Source of the DNA: Streptomyces violaceoruber
Lineage (GTDB): Bacteria > Actinomycetota > Actinomycetes > Streptomycetales > Streptomycetaceae
DNA length: 64,000 nt
Assembly: GCF_033406955.1 (NCBI RefSeq)
Contig: NZ_CP137734.1
Coordinates: 5,890,001 to 5,954,000, forward strand
Direction of reading: 5' to 3'
A model generated the notes under the pieces. It did not search any database and was not told where the DNA came from. It saw only the letters and a list, made by a program, of their open reading frames with translations. A program made the translations under genes and the position numbers. This document shows positions 40,446-49,647 of this stretch, piece by piece. Numbering within the stretch: the first letter of the stretch is position 1; every line of letters starts with the position of its first letter.

Positions 40446-41021
40446 GTGGGAGTCAGCCTCAGCAAGGGCGGCAACGTTTCGCTGACCAAGGAGGCCCCCG
40501 GCCTGACCGCGGTCATCGTCGGTCTGGGGTGGGACATCCGCACCACGACCGGCACCGACTTCGACCTCGACGCCAGCGCACTGCTGCTGAACAGCGGCGG
40601 CAAGGTCGCCAGCGACGCGCACTTCATCTTCTTCAACAACCTGAAGAGCCCGGACGGATCGGTCGAGCACACCGGCGACAACATCACCGGTGAGGGCGAG
40701 GGCGACGACGAGCAGATCAAGATCAACCTCGCCACGGTCCCCGCCGACATCGAGAAGATCGTCTTCCCGGTCTCGATCTACGACGCCGAGAACCGCCAGC
40801 AGTCCTTCGGCCAGGTGCGCAACGCGTTCATCCGCGTCGTCAACCAGGCCGGCGAGGCCGAGATCGCCCGCTACGACCTGAGCGAGGACGCCTCCACCGA
40901 GACCGCCATGGTCTTCGGCGAGCTGTACCGCCACGGCGCGGAGTGGAAGTTCCGCGCCATCGGCCAGGGCTACGCCTCGGGCCTGCGCGGCATCGCCCAG
41001 GACTTCGGCGTCAACGTCTGA
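40446..41021 (+). CDS. terD: TerD family stress protein
   Basis: A 191-residue TerD domain protein starting GTG, with the classical opening [20 protein letters not shown]. It has [11 protein letters not shown] and [10 protein letters not shown] acidic calcium-binding segments and the closing [25 protein letters not shown]. TerD proteins bind calcium and associate with membrane TerC-type proteins in tellurite, phage and stress resistance systems. It lies first in a cluster of five ter-type genes and shares about 70 percent of residues by eye with the next gene. A regulatory palindrome is upstream; an octamer repeat follows. Confidence 0.95.
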
Positions 41022-41180: not shown

Positions 41181-41756
41181 ATGGGCGTCACGCTTGCCAA
41201 GGGCGGCAACGTCTCCCTGTCCAAGGCCGCACCGAACCTCACGCAGGTACTGGTCGGGCTCGGCTGGGACGCGCGTTCCACCACCGGAGCACCCTTCGAC
41301 CTCGACGCCAGTGCACTCGTGTGCAGCAGCGGCCGGGTGCTCGGCGACGAGTGGTTCGTCTTCTACAACCAGCTCAAGAGCCCGGACGGCTCGATCGAGC
41401 ACACCGGCGACAACCTCACGGGCGAGGGCGACGGCGACGACGAGTCGCTGCTGGTCGACCTCTCCAAGGTGCCGGCCCACTGCGACAAGATCGTCTTCCC
41501 GGTCTCGATCCACATGGCCGACGAGCGCGGACAGACCTTCGGCCAGGTCAGCAACGCTTTCATCCGGGTCGTCAACCAGGCCGACGGCCAGGAGCTGGCC
41601 CGCTACGACCTCAGTGAGGACGCCTCCACGGAGACCGCGATGATCTTCGGCGAGCTCTACCGCTACCAGGGCGAGTGGAAGTTCCGTGCAGTGGGGCAGG
41701 GGTACGCGTCTGGGCTTCGCGGCATCGCTCTAGACTTCGGAGTCAACGTTTCGTAA
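41181..41756 (+). CDS. terD: TerD family stress protein, second copy
   Basis: A 191-residue paralogue of the preceding gene ([34 protein letters not shown], closing [15 protein letters not shown]). Aspartate-rich sites ([19 protein letters not shown]) suggest calcium binding. It is preceded by a strong hairpin and followed 50 nt later by the DUF475 gene. Tandem TerDs with near-identical length indicate a duplication. Confidence 0.95.
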
Positions 41757-41805: not shown

Positions 41806-42948
41806 GTGCTTCTGAAAACCTTCGGCTGGTCGTTCGCGGTCACCGCGCTCGGCCTGGTCGCGGCGGTCTTCTACGGGGGGTGGACCGCCTTCGGCATCGT
41901 GGCGATCCTCTCCATCATGGAGATCTCGCTGTCCTTCGACAACGCGGTGGTCAACGCCGGGATCCTGAAGAAGATGAATGCCTTCTGGCAGAAGATCTTC
42001 CTCACCATCGGCATCCTCATCGCCGTGTTCGGCATGCGCCTGGTCTTCCCGGTCGTGATCGTGGCGATCAGCGCGTCGCTCGGACCGATCGAGGCGGTCG
42101 ACCTCGCGCTCACCGACAAGGACCGCTATCAGGAGCTGGTGACGGACGCCCATCCGTCGATCGCCGCCTTCGGTGGCATGTTCCTTCTGATGATCTTCCT
42201 CGACTTCATCTTCGAGGACCGGGACATCAAGTGGCTGGCCTGGCTGGAGCGTCCGCTGGCCAAGCTCGGCAAGGTCGACATGCTGTCGGTCTGCATCGCC
42301 CTGGTCGTGCTGCTCGTCTCCGCGATCACCTTCGGCGCCCACGCCCACCAGCACGGCGGCGCCCATGCCGACAAGGCGGAGACGGTCCTGCTCGCGGGCA
42401 TCGCGGGCCTGATCACCTACATGATCGTCGGTGGTCTCTCCGGCTACTTCGAGGACAAACTCGAAGAGGAGGAGGAACGGGAGCACGAGGAGGAAGAGGA
42501 AGCCGCGCGCACCGGCAAGCCCAAGTCGGCCGTCAGGCTGGCGGGCAAGGCGGCGTTCTTCATGTTCCTCTACCTGGAGGTCCTGGACGCCTCCTTCTCC
42601 TTCGACGGCGTCATCGGCGCCTTCGCCATCACCAACGACATCGTCCTGATGGCCCTCGGCCTGGGCATCGGCGCCATGTACGTCCGGTCGCTCACGGTCT
42701 ACCTGGTCCGCCAGGGCACCCTTGACGACTACGTCTACCTGGAGCACGGCGCCCACTACGCCATCGGCGCCCTCGCCGTGATCCTGCTGGTCACCATCCA
42801 GTACGAGATCCACGAGATCATCACCGGCCTCGTCGGTGTCGCCCTGATCGGCTGGTCCTTCTTCTCCTCGGTGCGCCGCAACCGCGCACTGGCGGCGGCC
42901 GGAGGAGACGGCGACCAGGAGAAGGCGGAGGTCTCCTCCGGGGTGTGA
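41806..42948 (+). CDS. DUF475/TerC-like integral membrane protein
   Basis: A 380-residue multi-pass protein starting GTG. It shows the TerC-type motif ILSIMEISLSFDNAVVNAGILKKM and a second, symmetric VLDASFSFDGVIGAFAIT. Both place acidic residues inside membrane helices, as in metal-ion-linked TerC proteins. A charged acidic loop (EEEEREHEEEEE, residues about 220-235) and a His-rich HAHQHGGAH loop may bind metal. It sits after two TerDs, its expected partners at the membrane. DUF475 is related to but distinct from TerC. Confidence 0.9.
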   Translation: MLLKTFGWSFAVTALGLVAAVFYGGWTAFGIVAILSIMEISLSFDNAVVNAGILKKMNAFWQKIFLTIGILIAVFGMRLVFPVVIVAISASLGPIEAVDLALTDKDRYQELVTDAHPSIAAFGGMFLLMIFLDFIFEDRDIKWLAWLERPLAKLGKVDMLSVCIALVVLLVSAITFGAHAHQHGGAHADKAETVLLAGIAGLITYMIVGGLSGYFEDKLEEEEEREHEEEEEAARTGKPKSAVRLAGKAAFFMFLYLEVLDASFSFDGVIGAFAITNDIVLMALGLGIGAMYVRSLTVYLVRQGTLDDYVYLEHGAHYAIGALAVILLVTIQYEIHEIITGLVGVALIGWSFFSSVRRNRALAAAGGDGDQEKAEVSSGV

Positions 42949-43099: not shown

Positions 43100-43837
43100 A
43101 TGGGCTTCTTGGACGGGCTGTGGCGCGGCCGCGAGTCCGAGTTCGACTCGGGCAGTGCGGCGACCAACTCCATACAGCTGACCAAACGGCACAGTCAGGT
43201 ATCCCTGACCAAGCAGGGCGCGGCGACCGGCAATCTCCGTGTCAACCTCTCCTGGCGGATGCGGACCTCCGACATCTCGGGCGTCCAGCGGGAGAGCCTG
43301 CTGCGGCACCCCTTCAAGGCGCTCAAGCCCCCCGAGGTCGTCGGCCACAGCCAGAGCATGGTCAACGTCGACCTCGACCTCGGCTGCCTCTACGAACTCA
43401 AGGACGGCACCCGCGGGGTGGTCCAGCCGCTCGGCGGCTTCCTGGGCGACGTCAACGCCCCGCCGTACGTCAAGCTCAGCGGCGACGACCGCTTCGGCTC
43501 GGCCTCCGGCGAGACGCTCTACGTCAACCTCGACCACAAGGACGAGATCAAGCGCCTGCTGCTCTTCGCCTACATCTACGACCAGACCCCGGCCTTCGAC
43601 CGGACGCACGCCGTCGTCACGCTCTACCCGAGCAACGGGCCCCGCATCGAGATCGGCCTCGACGAGCGGCATCCGCAGGCCCGGTCCTGTGCCGTGGTGA
43701 TGATCGAGAACGTCAAGGACGAGATCCTCGTCCGCCGCGAGGTGAAGTTCGTCTACGGCTTCCAGGGCGAGCTGGACCGGCTGTACGGCTGGGGCCTGCA
43801 ATGGGGCCGGGGGCACAAGAGCAAGGCGGAGCGCTGA
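43100..43837 (+). CDS. TerA-like tellurium-resistance family protein
   Basis: A 245-residue protein in the TerD superfamily, of the TerA type. It opens MGFLDGLWRG, then IQLTKRHSQVSLTKQG, VNVDLDLGCLYELKDGTRGVVQPLGG and VVTLYPSNGPRIEIGLDE, and ends in a basic hydrophilic segment. The acidic calcium-binding segments are weaker than in TerD. It follows the DUF475 gene by 151 nt across a strong hairpin, and converges on a TerD with a Pro-rich tail. Confidence 0.8.
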   Translation: MGFLDGLWRGRESEFDSGSAATNSIQLTKRHSQVSLTKQGAATGNLRVNLSWRMRTSDISGVQRESLLRHPFKALKPPEVVGHSQSMVNVDLDLGCLYELKDGTRGVVQPLGGFLGDVNAPPYVKLSGDDRFGSASGETLYVNLDHKDEIKRLLLFAYIYDQTPAFDRTHAVVTLYPSNGPRIEIGLDERHPQARSCAVVMIENVKDEILVRREVKFVYGFQGELDRLYGWGLQWGRGHKSKAER

Positions 43838-43869
43838 GCCCCCGCCACCGGCCGCCGTCCGCGGGGGCT
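43837..43869. terminator. Hairpin between convergent TerA-like and TerD genes
   Basis: AGCCCCCGC (43837-43845) and GCGGGGGCT (43861-43869) are perfect complements with a 15-nt loop, spanning the gap between the two stop codons. Confidence 0.75.
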
Positions 43870-44863
43870 ACCGGCCGACGAACTGCGGGCCCTGCGGGGG
43901 CAGCCGGAAATCCGGATCGGGCGCCCCGGTGACCGGCTGCGGATAGCCGTAGCCGGACTGCGCTCCCGTGGCCCCGGCCGCCGCAGGCGCCTGCGGATAC
44001 CCGTACCCGGGCCGGCCGGCGTCCGGCTGGGGGTAGCCGTAGGCGGGCTGGGCCGTCGCCGGCTGCTGCGGATAGCCGTACGCGGGCTGCGCCGGTACGC
44101 CGGTGGGCTGCTCGGGCGGCAGGGGGCGCGAGGGCCCCGGAAGCGGCTGCACGGCCGTCGGGTGGTCGGGGCCGACCACCGGCGGGGCGGGGATGGACCG
44201 GGCAGGCGTCGGCTGGTCGGGCGTGGCCTGCGAGGGGGCGGACGAGGAGGCGGCGGAAGCGGCTGCGGGGGACGTCGACGCGGCGTCGGGCCGGGGGGCC
44301 GACATGGGGTCGTTCGCGCCCTCCGACTCGTCCACCGAGATGCCGAAGTCGGTCGCCAGGCCCCTGAGCCCGTTGGAGTAGCCCTCGCCCAGCGCCCGGA
44401 ACTTCCAGCCCTCCCCGCGCCGGTACAGCTCGCCGCAGATCAGCGCCGTCTCCTGGCCGGTCTCCGGTGTGACGTCGAAGTACGCCAGCGGTTCCGCGTC
44501 GGCCGCCGCGTCGTGCAGCAGGATGCGCAGCGACCGGACGCGGTCGAAGGTCACGCCGTCCGCCGACGCGACCAGCAGGATCCGGCCCACCGAGGGCTCG
44601 ACGCCGGAGAGATCCGTCTGGATCGTGTCGGTCAGGCCCTCGGCGACCCGCTTCTTGCCGAGCCGCCAGACCTGGCCGGAGGGATGCCGTGGCTGGTTGT
44701 AGAAGACGAAGTCCTCGTCGGAACGCACGCGGTCGTCCGGCCCCAGCAGCAGCGCGGAGGCGTCGACGTCGGGAACCCCCTGCCCGGGGGTCCAGCGCAG
44801 CACGGCGCGTACCGTGGTGGCTTGCAGCGGGACGTTCGACCCCTTCAGCATCGCGTGCGTCAT
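43868..44863 (-). CDS. TerD-domain protein with Pro/Gln/Tyr-rich repeat tail
   Basis: A 331-residue protein. Residues 1-180 are a TerD domain ([69 protein letters not shown]). From about 180 it turns into a Pro/Ala/Ser-rich linker, then about seven [AS]-YGYPQ-type repeats (AYGYPQ, GYGYPQ). Such Tyr/Pro/Gln-rich tails are disordered and often drive clustering at membranes or wall. It is on the opposite strand to the other ter genes and divergent from the aldolase operon. Confidence 0.87.
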
Positions 44864-45070: not shown

Positions 45071-46237
45071 ATGCGTCATTTCGGACAGATAGCCCCTGAT
45101 GTGCGGAAGCGTCTCTTTCATCAGGAGCCCTGCTCCTTCACGGCGGAGTCCCCGGCCAGGCTGCTGTCCGCGGCCCTGGGTGCCACGCTCTACAGTCCGG
45201 CCACCCGCCCCAGCCTCGCCGACGACATCCTGAAACAGAGCGCGCGCGGACTGGTGTCGATGGTGCTGTGCCTGGAGGACTCGATCGACGACGCCGACGT
45301 CCCCGTCGGCGAGGAGAACCTCGTACGGCAGCTCACGGACCTGGCGGAACGTTCCGGCGACGATGTCCCCCTGCTGTTCGTCCGGGTCCGTACCCCCGAG
45401 CAGATACCCGACCTCGTACGGCGCCTCGGCCCCGCCGTGCGGCTGCTGTCCGGGTTCGTACTGCCGAAGTTCACCGAGGAACGCGGCATGCCCTTCCTGG
45501 AGGCGCTCGCCGCCGCCGAGGCCACCAGCGGCCGCAGGCTCTTCGCCATGCCCGTGCTCGAGTCCCCGGACCTGCTGTACCGGGAGTCCCGGGTCCAGAC
45601 GCTGGAGGGCATCTCCCGGGCGGTCGACAAGTACCGCGACCGCGTGCTGGCCCTGCGGCTCGGCGTGACCGACTTCTGCTCCTCCTACGGGCTGCGCCGA
45701 GGCCCCGACATGACGGCCTACGACGTCCAGATCGTCGCCTCCGTGATCGCCGACGTGGTCAACATGCTCGCCCGCGCCGACGGCACCGGATTCACGGTGA
45801 CCGGACCGGTGTGGGAGTACTTCCGCGTCCAGGAGAGGATGTTCAAACCGCAACTGCGGCAGAGCCCCTTCCTGGAGGGGCAGGCCGTCGAACTGCGCCA
45901 GAAGCTCATCGAGCACTCCATGGACGGCCTGCTGCGCGAGATCTCCCTGGACCGGGCCAACGGCCTGCTGGGCAAGACCTGCATCCACCCCTCGCACGTG
46001 CTCCCCGTGCACGCACTGTCCGTGGTCAGCCACGAGGAGTTCAGCGACGCCCAGGACATCCTGCGGCCCGAACGCTGCGGCGGAGGCGTGATGAGGTCGG
46101 CCTACACGAACAAGATGAACGAGGTGAAGCCGCACCGCGCCTGGGCCGAGCGGACCCTGCTGCGCGGCGAGGTCTTCGGGGTGGCGAACGAGGACGTCGG
46201 CTTCGTGGAGCTGCTCGCCGCCGGACTCTCCGACTGA
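45071..46237 (+). CDS. HpcH/HpaI (citrate-lyase beta-like) aldolase of the Ter operon
   Basis: A 388-residue TIM-barrel C-C lyase related to CitE. Visible segments are GATLYSPATRPSLADDILKQ, SMVLCLEDSIDDADV, VRTPEQIPDL, MPVLESPDLLYRESR and KTCIHPSHVLPVHAL, carrying the acidic metal ligands and conserved Arg/Glu. First gene of a three-gene unit with the fused PRTase and HAD hydrolase. In published comparative genomics, Ter systems include such a lyase in a nucleoside-like metabolite biosynthetic module. The product here is unknown. Confidence 0.88.
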   Translation: MRHFGQIAPDVRKRLFHQEPCSFTAESPARLLSAALGATLYSPATRPSLADDILKQSARGLVSMVLCLEDSIDDADVPVGEENLVRQLTDLAERSGDDVPLLFVRVRTPEQIPDLVRRLGPAVRLLSGFVLPKFTEERGMPFLEALAAAEATSGRRLFAMPVLESPDLLYRESRVQTLEGISRAVDKYRDRVLALRLGVTDFCSSYGLRRGPDMTAYDVQIVASVIADVVNMLARADGTGFTVTGPVWEYFRVQERMFKPQLRQSPFLEGQAVELRQKLIEHSMDGLLREISLDRANGLLGKTCIHPSHVLPVHALSVVSHEEFSDAQDILRPERCGGGVMRSAYTNKMNEVKPHRAWAERTLLRGEVFGVANEDVGFVELLAAGLSD

Positions 46238-46315: not shown

Positions 46316-48835
46316 ATGACCGAGCGGGCGCACGCCGAGGGGCACGCCGACAAGGACGCCGGAGAGCACGCCGACGGGCACGCCGGAGTCTGGTCCGGCA
46401 GCTGGGTCGCCGAGCGGCTCGGCGTCGGACTCACCGGCGACGAGGCGCTGACCGGCCTGCTGGGGCTCGCCCTGCGACGCAACCCCAAGCGGGCGCACCT
46501 GCTCGTCTCCAACGTGCTCGGCAAGCACGTCCCGCAGTCGCCCGCCGTCGTCTACGGCCACGGCGTCGCCCTCGGCCGACGCGTCCGCGACCTGCTCGGC
46601 GCCGAGGAGACCGCACGCGCGGTCGTCCTCGGCTACGCGGAGACCGCCACCGGACTCGGCCACTCCGTCGCCGACGGCCTGGGCCCCGCGCCCTATCTGC
46701 ACTCCACCCGCCGTCCGGTCGCCCACGTCCCCCGGGCGGGCGGCTTCGAGGAGTCCCACTCGCACGCGACCTCCCACCTCCTGCTGCCCGAGGACCCGGC
46801 GCTGCTCGCCGGAGACGGGCCGCTGGTCCTCGTCGACGACGAGTTCTCCACCGGCAACACGGTGCTCAACACCGTCCGCGCCCTGCACGAGCGCTACCCC
46901 CGCAAGCGATACGTCGTGGTCGCCCTGGTCGACATGCGCTCGCCCGCGGACGCCGGCCGGCTGGACGACTTCGCCCGGGAGATCGGCGCCCGCGTGGACC
47001 TGGTGACCACCGCCTCCGGCACGGTCCGGCTGCCGCCCGGCGTACTGGAGAAGGGGCAGGAGCTGGTCGCCCGGCACGAGGCGACGGCCACGGAGCCGAC
47101 CGGCCCCGCTCCGGCCGCGCCACCGGCCGGATCCGTCGAGCGCGTCCGGCTGCGCTGGCCGCACGACGTGCCCGACGGCGGACGGCACGGATTCACCGCC
47201 GCCCACCGGGCCCGGCTGGAGGCCGCCCTGCCCGCCATGGCGGCACGGATCGCCGAGGCGCTCCCCGCCGGCGCCCGACGCGTGCTCGTCCTCGGCTTCG
47301 AGGAGCTCATGTACGCCCCCCTCCGCCTGGCCCACGCGCTGGAGCAGACCGTCGGCGCCGACGTCGACGTGCGCTACTCCACCACCACCCGCTCTCCCGT
47401 CCTCGCCGTCGACGACCCCGGCTACGCCATCCGCACCCGTCTGGTCTTCCCCGCGCACGACGACCCGGCCGACGGCCCTGGCGAGCGCTACGCCTACAAC
47501 GTCGCGGGCGGCGGCTTCGACGCCGTCGTCGCCGTCGTCGACTCGGCCGCCGACACCCCCGCGCTGCACGCCCCGGACGGACTGCCGGCCCGGCTCGCCG
47601 CCCACGTCCCGCACGTCCTGCTCGCGGTCGTGCCGTCGTACGTCCCGCGCCCCCCGCACGCCACCGAAAGGCCCTCCATGCTGCCCGAGCCCCTGCGCGG
47701 CCCCGACTTCTCCTCGTACGCGCCCGACGAGGTCGGCTGGCTGCTCCAGGACCTCTCGGACGTGACGCTGGAGGCACCGACCGAGGAACGCGAGGAGGCC
47801 ATCCAGAGCGGCGGCGCGCACTACGCCGAGTCGCTGCCCGTGGAGTACCAGCCCAGCGAGCAGTACCAGGACCTGTTCCACGCGGCGCTCGAGACGTCCG
47901 CGGCCCGGCTGGCGCGCGCCGTCGGCGCCGTCACCGAGATCGTCCTCGCGGAACGGTCGCCCCGCCCCGTCCTGGTCTCCCTCGCCCGCGCGGGCACCCC
48001 GGTCGGCGTCCTGATGCGCCGCTGGGCGCAGTTCCGCCATGGTCTCGACCTCCCCCACTACGCCGTGTCGATCGTCCGGGGCCGCGGCATCGACGCCAAC
48101 GCGCTGCGCTGGCTGGCCGACCACCACGACCCCGCCGACGTCGTCTTCGTCGACGGCTGGACCGGCAAGGGCGCCATCACCCGCGAACTCGCCGCCGCCC
48201 TGCGCGCATTCGAGGCCACCGACGGCATCACCGGCTTCGACCCGGAGATCGCCGTACTGGCCGATCCCGGCTCCTGCGTACGCACCTACGGCACCCGTGA
48301 CGACTTTCTCATCCCCTCCGCCTGCCTCAACTCCACCGTCTCCGGCCTGATATCCCGCACCGTGCTCCGCGCCGACCTGGTCGGCCCGCACGACTTCCAC
48401 GGCGCGAAGTTCTACCGCGAACTCGCCGCCGTCGACCTGTCACCGGACTTCCTCGACGCCGTCTCCGCCCGCTTCCCCGACGTCACGGACACGGTCGACG
48501 CCCAGGCGAAGGACCTCCTCTCCGCCGACCGCACCCCGACCTGGGAGGGCTGGGCCGCCGTCGAGCGCATCAGCGAGGAGTACGGCATCCACGACGTGAA
48601 CCTCGTCAAGCCCGGCGTCGGCGAGACCACGCGGGTGATGCTGCGCCGCGTCCCGTGGAAGGTGCTGGCCCGCACCGGCGCCGGCGCCGACCTGGACCAC
48701 GTCCGCCTGCTGGCCGAACAGCGGGGCGTGCCCGTGGAGGAGGTCGCCGACCTCCCGTACACCTGTGTCGGGCTGATCCACCCCCAGTACACGCGGGGCG
48801 CCACCGGCGCCGACGGCAAGGCGGTGACGCTCTGA
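46316..48835 (+). CDS. Fused double phosphoribosyltransferase (PRTase_2-TRSP plus StiP-like)
   Basis: An 839-residue protein made of two enzymes that are usually separate. Residues about 30-250 are a PRTase with PRPP-binding loop VLVDDEFSTGNTV (Asp174-Asp175 region). Residues about 275-445 form the TRSP-type C-terminal domain. A Pro-rich junction leads, from about residue 455 (MLPEPLRGPDFSSY), into a StiP/PRTase_1-like half with a second PRPP loop FVDGWTGKGA (residues 611-620). Both fit the Ter-linked biosynthetic module thought to make a nucleoside-type metabolite. The start ATG at 46316 lies 78 nt after the aldolase gene; the stop overlaps the HAD gene start (TGATG). Confidence 0.87.
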   Translation: MTERAHAEGHADKDAGEHADGHAGVWSGSWVAERLGVGLTGDEALTGLLGLALRRNPKRAHLLVSNVLGKHVPQSPAVVYGHGVALGRRVRDLLGAEETARAVVLGYAETATGLGHSVADGLGPAPYLHSTRRPVAHVPRAGGFEESHSHATSHLLLPEDPALLAGDGPLVLVDDEFSTGNTVLNTVRALHERYPRKRYVVVALVDMRSPADAGRLDDFAREIGARVDLVTTASGTVRLPPGVLEKGQELVARHEATATEPTGPAPAAPPAGSVERVRLRWPHDVPDGGRHGFTAAHRARLEAALPAMAARIAEALPAGARRVLVLGFEELMYAPLRLAHALEQTVGADVDVRYSTTTRSPVLAVDDPGYAIRTRLVFPAHDDPADGPGERYAYNVAGGGFDAVVAVVDSAADTPALHAPDGLPARLAAHVPHVLLAVVPSYVPRPPHATERPSMLPEPLRGPDFSSYAPDEVGWLLQDLSDVTLEAPTEEREEAIQSGGAHYAESLPVEYQPSEQYQDLFHAALETSAARLARAVGAVTEIVLAERSPRPVLVSLARAGTPVGVLMRRWAQFRHGLDLPHYAVSIVRGRGIDANALRWLADHHDPADVVFVDGWTGKGAITRELAAALRAFEATDGITGFDPEIAVLADPGSCVRTYGTRDDFLIPSACLNSTVSGLISRTVLRADLVGPHDFHGAKFYRELAAVDLSPDFLDAVSARFPDVTDTVDAQAKDLLSADRTPTWEGWAAVERISEEYGIHDVNLVKPGVGETTRVMLRRVPWKVLARTGAGADLDHVRLLAEQRGVPVEEVADLPYTCVGLIHPQYTRGATGADGKAVTL

Positions 48836-49647
48836 TGCCCGTACTCGTCGCCAGCGACCTCGACCGCACGCTCATCTACTCCGCGGCCGCCCTCGGACTG
48901 ACCATGCCCGACCTGCGGGCACCCCGCCTGCTGTGCGTGGAGGTCTACGAGAGCAAGCCCCTCTCCTACCTGACCGAGACGGCCGCCCAACTGCTGACCG
49001 ACCTCGGCGACTCGGCCCTCTTCGTGCCGACCACCACCCGGACCCGCAAGCAGTACCAGCGGATCAACCTCCCGGGCCCTGCGCCGAAGTACGCGATCTG
49101 CGCCAACGGCGGCCACCTGCTGGTGGACGGCGTCTCCGACCCCGGCTGGCACGCCCGGGTGACCGCGCGGCTGGCCGACGAATGCGCCTCGCTCGCCGAG
49201 GTCCGCGACCACCTGACGAACACCGCCGACCCGCTGTGGGTGCGCAAGCACCGGGTCGCCGAGGACCTCTTCGCCTACCTGGTCGTCGAACGCGACCTGC
49301 TGCCCCAGGACTGGGTGAAGGAACTCGCCGTGTGGGCCGAGAACCGCGGCTGGACCGTGTCCCTCCAGGGCCGCAAGATCTACGCCGTGCCCAAGCCGCT
49401 CACCAAGAGCGCCGCCATGCACGAGGTCGCCCGCCGCACCGGCGCCGAACTCACCCTCGCCGCCGGAGACTCGCTCCTCGACGCCGACCTGCTCCTCGCC
49501 GCCGACCGCGGCTGGCGCCCGGGCCACGGCGAACTGGCCGACTCCGGATGGACGGCTCCGACGATCAGCGCCTTGCCCGAGCGCGGCGTCCTGGCCGGTG
49601 AGCGGATCCTCCGGGAGTTCCTGCGCGCGGTGCGCCCGGCTCGCTGA
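48835..49647 (+). CDS. HAD-family hydrolase of the Ter operon
   Basis: A 270-residue HAD phosphohydrolase. Motif I is SDLDRTLIYS (D-x-D-x-T), motif II TTTRTRKQY (Thr), motif III Lys in KPLTKSAAM and motif IV GDSLLDADLLL (G-D-x-x-x-D). The cap arrangement suggests type C2. The ATG at 48835 overlaps the PRTase stop, so it is co-translated. A HAD is a standard part of the Ter biosynthetic module and may dephosphorylate its nucleotide-type product. The 3' end overlaps the converging DedA gene by 83 bp. Confidence 0.9.
   Translation: MPVLVASDLDRTLIYSAAALGLTMPDLRAPRLLCVEVYESKPLSYLTETAAQLLTDLGDSALFVPTTTRTRKQYQRINLPGPAPKYAICANGGHLLVDGVSDPGWHARVTARLADECASLAEVRDHLTNTADPLWVRKHRVAEDLFAYLVVERDLLPQDWVKELAVWAENRGWTVSLQGRKIYAVPKPLTKSAAMHEVARRTGAELTLAAGDSLLDADLLLAADRGWRPGHGELADSGWTAPTISALPERGVLAGERILREFLRAVRPAR

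Follow-up and report, generated by a model that had tools for sequence, protein, structure and literature searches.

Fused PRTase_2/TRSP-StiP/PELOTA protein of a Streptomyces Ter operon is the normal form of the gene in the genus

We analysed a window of 64,000 nucleotides of Streptomyces violaceoruber (positions 5,890,001-5,954,000 of a single 8.63-Mb contig), in which one gene of a Ter operon carries two phosphoribosyltransferase (PRTase)-type halves (Table 1). Going downstream, the locus holds two TerD-family genes, a DUF475/TerC-like gene and a further TerD gene in divergent orientation, followed by the C-C bond lyase, the fused gene and the HAD-type phosphatase. The fused gene is thus adjoined by the TerD/TerC genes, the C-C lyase and the HAD that characterize the Ter biosynthetic module. 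The HAD gene had no Pfam match of its own, and its identity comes from homologues in related loci that also match the HAD gene of a proteobacterial Ter plasmid. Between the DUF475/TerC-like and divergent TerD genes lies a 245-residue open reading frame (window 43100-43837) that appears TerA/TerD-related by eye and has no Pfam match.

The fused gene is a single open reading frame of 839 codons with an ATG start and a TGA stop, and an in-frame TAG immediately precedes the ATG. Its third-position GC of 0.95 is as expected in a high-GC genome, indicating that the gene is real, and a chance open frame is excluded because congeners match it at ~73-90% identity in one frame. Pfam places PRTase_2, TRSP, StiP and PELOTA_1 in this order, each far above its cut-off, in agreement with a preliminary description of this DNA that had assigned PRTase_2/TRSP to the N-terminal half and StiP to the C-terminal half; the C-terminal PELOTA_1 (L7Ae-like) domain is an addition to its domain list. 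The two loops that it had read as PRPP-binding, VLVDDEFSTGNTV and FVDGWTGKGA, are indeed found at residues 171-183 and 611-620. The first ~22 residues (window 46316-46390) are rich in His and Asp/Glu (HAEGHADKDAGEHADGHAG) and are mostly missing in relatives.

Table 1 Features of the Ter operon and of the fused gene, in window coordinates
Feature	Position	Strand	Details
TerD-family gene	40446..41021	+	Assigned from sequence; same place as Tsukamurella TerD
TerD-family gene	41181..41756	+	Assigned from sequence
DUF475/TerC-like membrane protein	41806..42948	+	
TerD domain protein with Pro/Gln-rich tail	43868..44863	-	PF02342, 4e-44; divergent from biosynthetic operon
C-C bond lyase (HpcH/citrate-lyase-beta like)	45071..46237	+	Same operon; PF15617, 1.6e-123
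Fused PRTase_2-TRSP-StiP-PELOTA gene	46316..48835	+	839 aa
PRTase_2 domain	46457..47020	+	Residues 48-235; Pfam 1.3e-68, 230.7 bits; APRT-like fold
Canonical PRPP loop VLVDDEFSTGNTV	46826..46864	+	Residues 171-183
TRSP domain	47174..47566	+	Residues 287-417; Pfam 7.1e-41, 139.5 bits
Linker at fusion point	47633..47710	+	About residues 440-465; low model confidence
StiP domain (PRTase_1 in the preliminary description)	47711..48463	+	Residues 466-716; Pfam 7.1e-106, 353.4 bits; PyrR/HGPRT-like fold
Divergent PRPP-loop equivalent FVDGWTGKGA	48146..48175	+	Residues 611-620
PELOTA_1/L7Ae-like RNA-binding-type domain	48542..48781	+	Residues 743-822; Pfam 2.7e-35, 120.4 bits
HAD-type phosphatase	48835..49647	+	Same operon; start overlaps stop of fused gene (TGATG)

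The N-terminal half has all the features of a Ter-module PRTase_2/TRSP enzyme, since both domains exceed their Pfam cut-offs and the PRPP loop is intact, with its DDExxTGxT motif at residues 174-182 invariant in six diverse sequences. A Foldseek search with the full-length model returned APRT and XPRT structures at a probability of 1.00, with E-values down to 7e-6 and TMt up to 0.68, and as they were missing when the C half was searched by itself, we attribute these matches to the N half. The canonical PRPP loop is also common to APRT/XPRT and the N half; however, the TRSP domain is extra here and the identity is only ~11-20%. In the full-length model, the helices and strands of TRSP follow one another as they do in PRTase_2, and VLG...E and T-x-R-x-P-like positions are common to the two domains. 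Alignment of TRSP with PRTase_2 by hhalign gave P = 5.7e-4 and a score of 29.0, compared to a maximum of 23.0 for shuffled sequences and 24.5 for an unrelated HAD. It is suggestive only, but TRSP could be a degenerate second PRTase-like domain, perhaps a PRTase duplicate.

In the C-terminal half, StiP and PELOTA_1 both score above their Pfam cut-offs, as in the Ter-module StiP/PELOTA protein, and the PELOTA domain is present in 42 of 42 members scanned. The AF2 model of this half, built with 42 sequences from the window and its relatives, has a pLDDT of 88.2 and a pTM of 0.89. Among the 50 PDB matches listed by Foldseek, PyrR and HGPRT match the core and L7Ae/eL8 match the tail, mostly at probabilities of 0.9-1.0, with the better PRTase matches spanning ~130 columns at ~4 Å. 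The E-values are modest at ~0.01, the best PRTase among the matches listed having 8.6e-3 and none falling below 0.001, and a PDB sequence search with the C half returned no PRTase, only weak L7Ae-type and chance matches. The model and the PyrR/HGPRT matches together support the PRTase fold that had been proposed for this half. PyrR is a uracil PRTase and RNA-binding regulator. Its fold is that of the StiP core, whereas the C half has a divergent PRPP loop, a separate L7Ae-like domain and no detectable sequence similarity to PyrR.

The loop of the C half, DGWTGKG, does not match the canonical two-acid PRPP motif (D/E-D/E-xxx-T-G). It reads D-G-x-T-G-K-G, with one acidic residue rather than two, and is two residues shorter than the canonical loop. 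Conservation is nevertheless strict, with D613, G614, W615, G617, K618 and G619 invariant in 92 homologues and T616 retained in 91. The model places the loop between strand 609-615 and helix 620-636, where PRTases bear their PRPP loop. Its identification as a PRPP loop therefore holds for its strand-loop-helix position and the surrounding fold, but not for its motif. When the two PRTase halves were aligned by hhalign their loops fell in register, but with P = 0.15 and a score no better than shuffles. Sequence homology between the halves was rejected on this basis, and their shared fold is thus a matter of structure only. The full-length AF2 model has confident domains (pLDDT 88.2) and a pTM of 0.60, and its linker drops below a pLDDT of 50 at residues 448-453, so no fixed contact between the halves is predicted.

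The fusion occurs in 24/24 congeners in our nearest sample, with both halves in one reading frame, and in all 11 other congeners with matches in a phylum-wide draw that shares one genome with the nearest sample; where BLAST matches were broken at the linker, the pieces lay in the same frame and were counted as fused. As every congener with a match carries the fusion, we rejected the idea that it is unique to the source genome, and its description as unusual was not borne out. The preliminary description had named related genomes all carrying the fusion as an outcome that would count against its reading, and within the genus this is what we find. Among named loci, those of Streptomyces, Streptacidiphilus and Actinacidiphila also carry the fusion, with three frameshifted exceptions; setting these aside, every member of the Streptomycetaceae sampled retains it. 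In the three exceptions, all Streptomyces assemblies (L087, L105 and L107), the frameshift falls inside PRTase_2/TRSP and could reflect sequencing errors or pseudogenes. The gene is genuine and encodes an ordinary Streptomyces enzyme belonging to the published Ter module, and the fusion is its normal state in the genus.

Both states occur beyond Streptomycetaceae, where the split homologues sought in other genomes were found. Fused forms are present in many Nocardia, some Gordonia, two Rhodococcus and two Cellulomonas, and split forms in Tsukamurella, most Rhodococcus, Williamsia, some Nocardia and Gordonia, Mycolicibacterium, Nakamurella, Pseudonocardia, Thermomonospora and Humibacillus. Plasmid records from Firmicutes, Deinococcus and Pseudomonas name two separate genes. 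The earlier statement that the two enzymes are usually encoded separately thus agrees with most other lineages sampled (Gammaproteobacteria, Firmicutes, Deinococcus, Tsukamurella and most Rhodococcus).

The Ter module of proteobacterial plasmids has the same PRTase_2/TRSP, StiP/PELOTA, C-C lyase and HAD families beside TerD/TerC genes. There the PRTases are separate genes that flank the HAD gene and are preceded by an ATP-grasp gene, whereas here they form one gene, the HAD follows and the operon has no ATP-grasp. The jumbo phage vB_AbaM_ME3 likewise has two separate PRTases with the HAD between. A Tsukamurella tyrosinosolvens plasmid locus (NZ_LR134456.1) has the same order as the window, lyase - PRTase_2/TRSP - StiP/PELOTA - HAD, but with the PRTases in two genes joined by a 4-base stop-start overlap. 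Nearly all of 80 named actinobacterial loci likewise run lyase - PRTase_2 - StiP - HAD. An ATP-grasp ligase is absent from the operon of the fused gene, and a Ter-type homologue (27% identical, genome 1088922-1090079 or 1090082) stands by itself far from it. Such a homologue in trans is found in 11/25 genomes of the genus including the source genome (10/24 congeners), a frequency on which we rejected an obligate ATP-grasp in trans, and the published pathway may therefore differ here. In Humibacillus sp. (L117:3857-4509) the module's lyase gene seems to be split over two frames, with an ATP-grasp gene close by on the opposite strand.

The product of the Ter biosynthetic module has been a prediction since 2012. 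That two PRTases make a nucleotide in Ter systems is proposed in passages of PMC5512222 and PMC7824862 that cite Anantharaman et al. 2012, and our search of the open literature returned no paper joining tellurite, the ter operon and phosphoribosyltransferase. We think it fairly probable that the fused gene encodes a two-headed enzyme of this module, acting in a pathway to a nucleoside-like metabolite. What is shown in its favour comprises the domains with their conserved residues and predicted folds, the gene order, and a fusion that recurs at a single junction, while what each head catalyses, what is produced and whether fusion brings an advantage are inferred. The N-terminal head, an APRT-like PRTase whose PRPP loop is intact, is predicted to transfer phosphoribose from PRPP to a purine-like base or similar acceptor. 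The C-terminal head would act through a PyrR/HGPRT-like PRTase fold with a divergent but strictly conserved loop, followed by the L7Ae-like RNA-binding-type domain, and both heads together with the adjoining C-C lyase and HAD phosphatase might produce the nucleoside-like metabolite proposed for Ter systems. Fusion would fix a 1:1 output and the proximity of proteins that elsewhere come from overlapping, probably translationally coupled genes. Several observations weigh against a two-headed enzyme, namely the missing second acidic residue in the C-half loop, the modest C-half Foldseek E-values (best PRTase 8.6e-3), the full-length pTM of 0.60, which gives no predicted contact between the halves, and the operon without ATP-grasp. 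Channelling of an intermediate between the halves, which had been suggested for the fusion, is not supported by this pTM or by gene order, since the proteobacterial phosphatase gene lies between the two PRTases.

The main rival to the two-headed enzyme, to which we give a distinctly smaller chance, is that only the N half is enzymatic, the C half being an RNA-binding regulator that senses PRPP or nucleotides, like PyrR or PurR, and is fused to the enzyme it monitors. The divergent loop with its single acidic residue would suit such a sensor, as would the place of PyrR among the best structural matches and the RNA-binding-type PELOTA domain in every member scanned; however, R558, R588, D593, D650 and R681 are very strongly conserved, a pattern that is more active-site-like. 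A further reading, which we consider quite improbable, takes the recurrent, junction-specific fusion as the sign of an obligate complex of two PRTases whose active sites receive an RNA from the L7Ae-like tail. The metabolite would then be a phosphoribosyl modification placed on or exchanged into RNA, with TRSP as a third, degenerate PRTase domain acting as scaffold. Least plausible of all is the reading behind the Pfam and RefSeq name, by which StiP would be a cysteine protease and the second half hence no PRTase. This reading draws on the family name, and the one open-literature paper with the StiP name appears to be a gut-enzyme survey. Against it, C654, C670 and C817 are each substituted in some homologues, leaving no invariant Cys among 92, so the name 'cysteine protease StiP' is unsupported, and the confident C-half model matches PRTases with no peptidase among the 50 PDB matches listed. 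On conservation and fold we rejected the protease reading, and the modelled fold suggests that this widespread database label misleads.

The same genes allow a different question to be asked of the fusion itself, that is, whether it could be neutral, with overlapping genes and a hypervariable linker merging and splitting by small indels and no functional coupling. In split actinobacterial loci the PRTase_2 stop does overlap the StiP start by 4 bases (NTGA) in nearly all cases, the linker is hypervariable, and in Nocardia and Gordonia the state has likely changed both ways. The Nocardia linker is too variable to align, so the fusing or splitting indel could not be placed. The StiP half was placed on a maximum-likelihood tree of 68 rows, made by a quick method and with modest support on many branches, in which Streptomyces species are the closest named relatives. 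This tree requires at least 8 state changes, whereas shuffled labels average 22.5. If the root is split and costs are equal, these are 5 gains and 3 losses of fusion; setting the cost of a loss to half that of a gain or less gives one gain and 11 losses, so the direction of the changes is not proven. From these sequence comparisons, the fusion probably arose several times at one gene junction.

Neighbouring junctions in the operon also overlap mostly (NTGA in 63/78 for lyase/PRTase_2 and 71/86 for StiP/HAD, a class that includes CTGA, some cases being one-base TGATG overlaps), but fused loci number 54/86 at PRTase_2/StiP, 0/78 at lyase/PRTase_2 and 0/86 at StiP/HAD. This comparison was conceived after the data were seen, and because the loci are related the counts are not independent trials, several separate lineages being the better measure. 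That fusion is confined to one of three mostly overlapping junctions favours physical coupling of the halves, and its retention in all Streptomycetaceae sampled also speaks against neutrality. The never-fusing neighbours are not decisive, as those junctions may be structurally unable to fuse, and we regard a neutral fusion as rather unlikely. The earlier proposal that the halves act together thus gains from a recurrent fusion specific to this junction and loses in that the model shows no fixed packing. What is new here is this junction-specific recurrence, which points to PRTase_2 and StiP as enzymes to study together, and the fold evidence against the protease label. A single polypeptide with both PRTase heads is also handy for purification and metabolite capture. 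One congener (L143, G023:C2:539000-552000) has, besides its fused gene and with no PRTase_2 match found next to it, an extra stand-alone StiP-PELOTA gene that is 59% identical.
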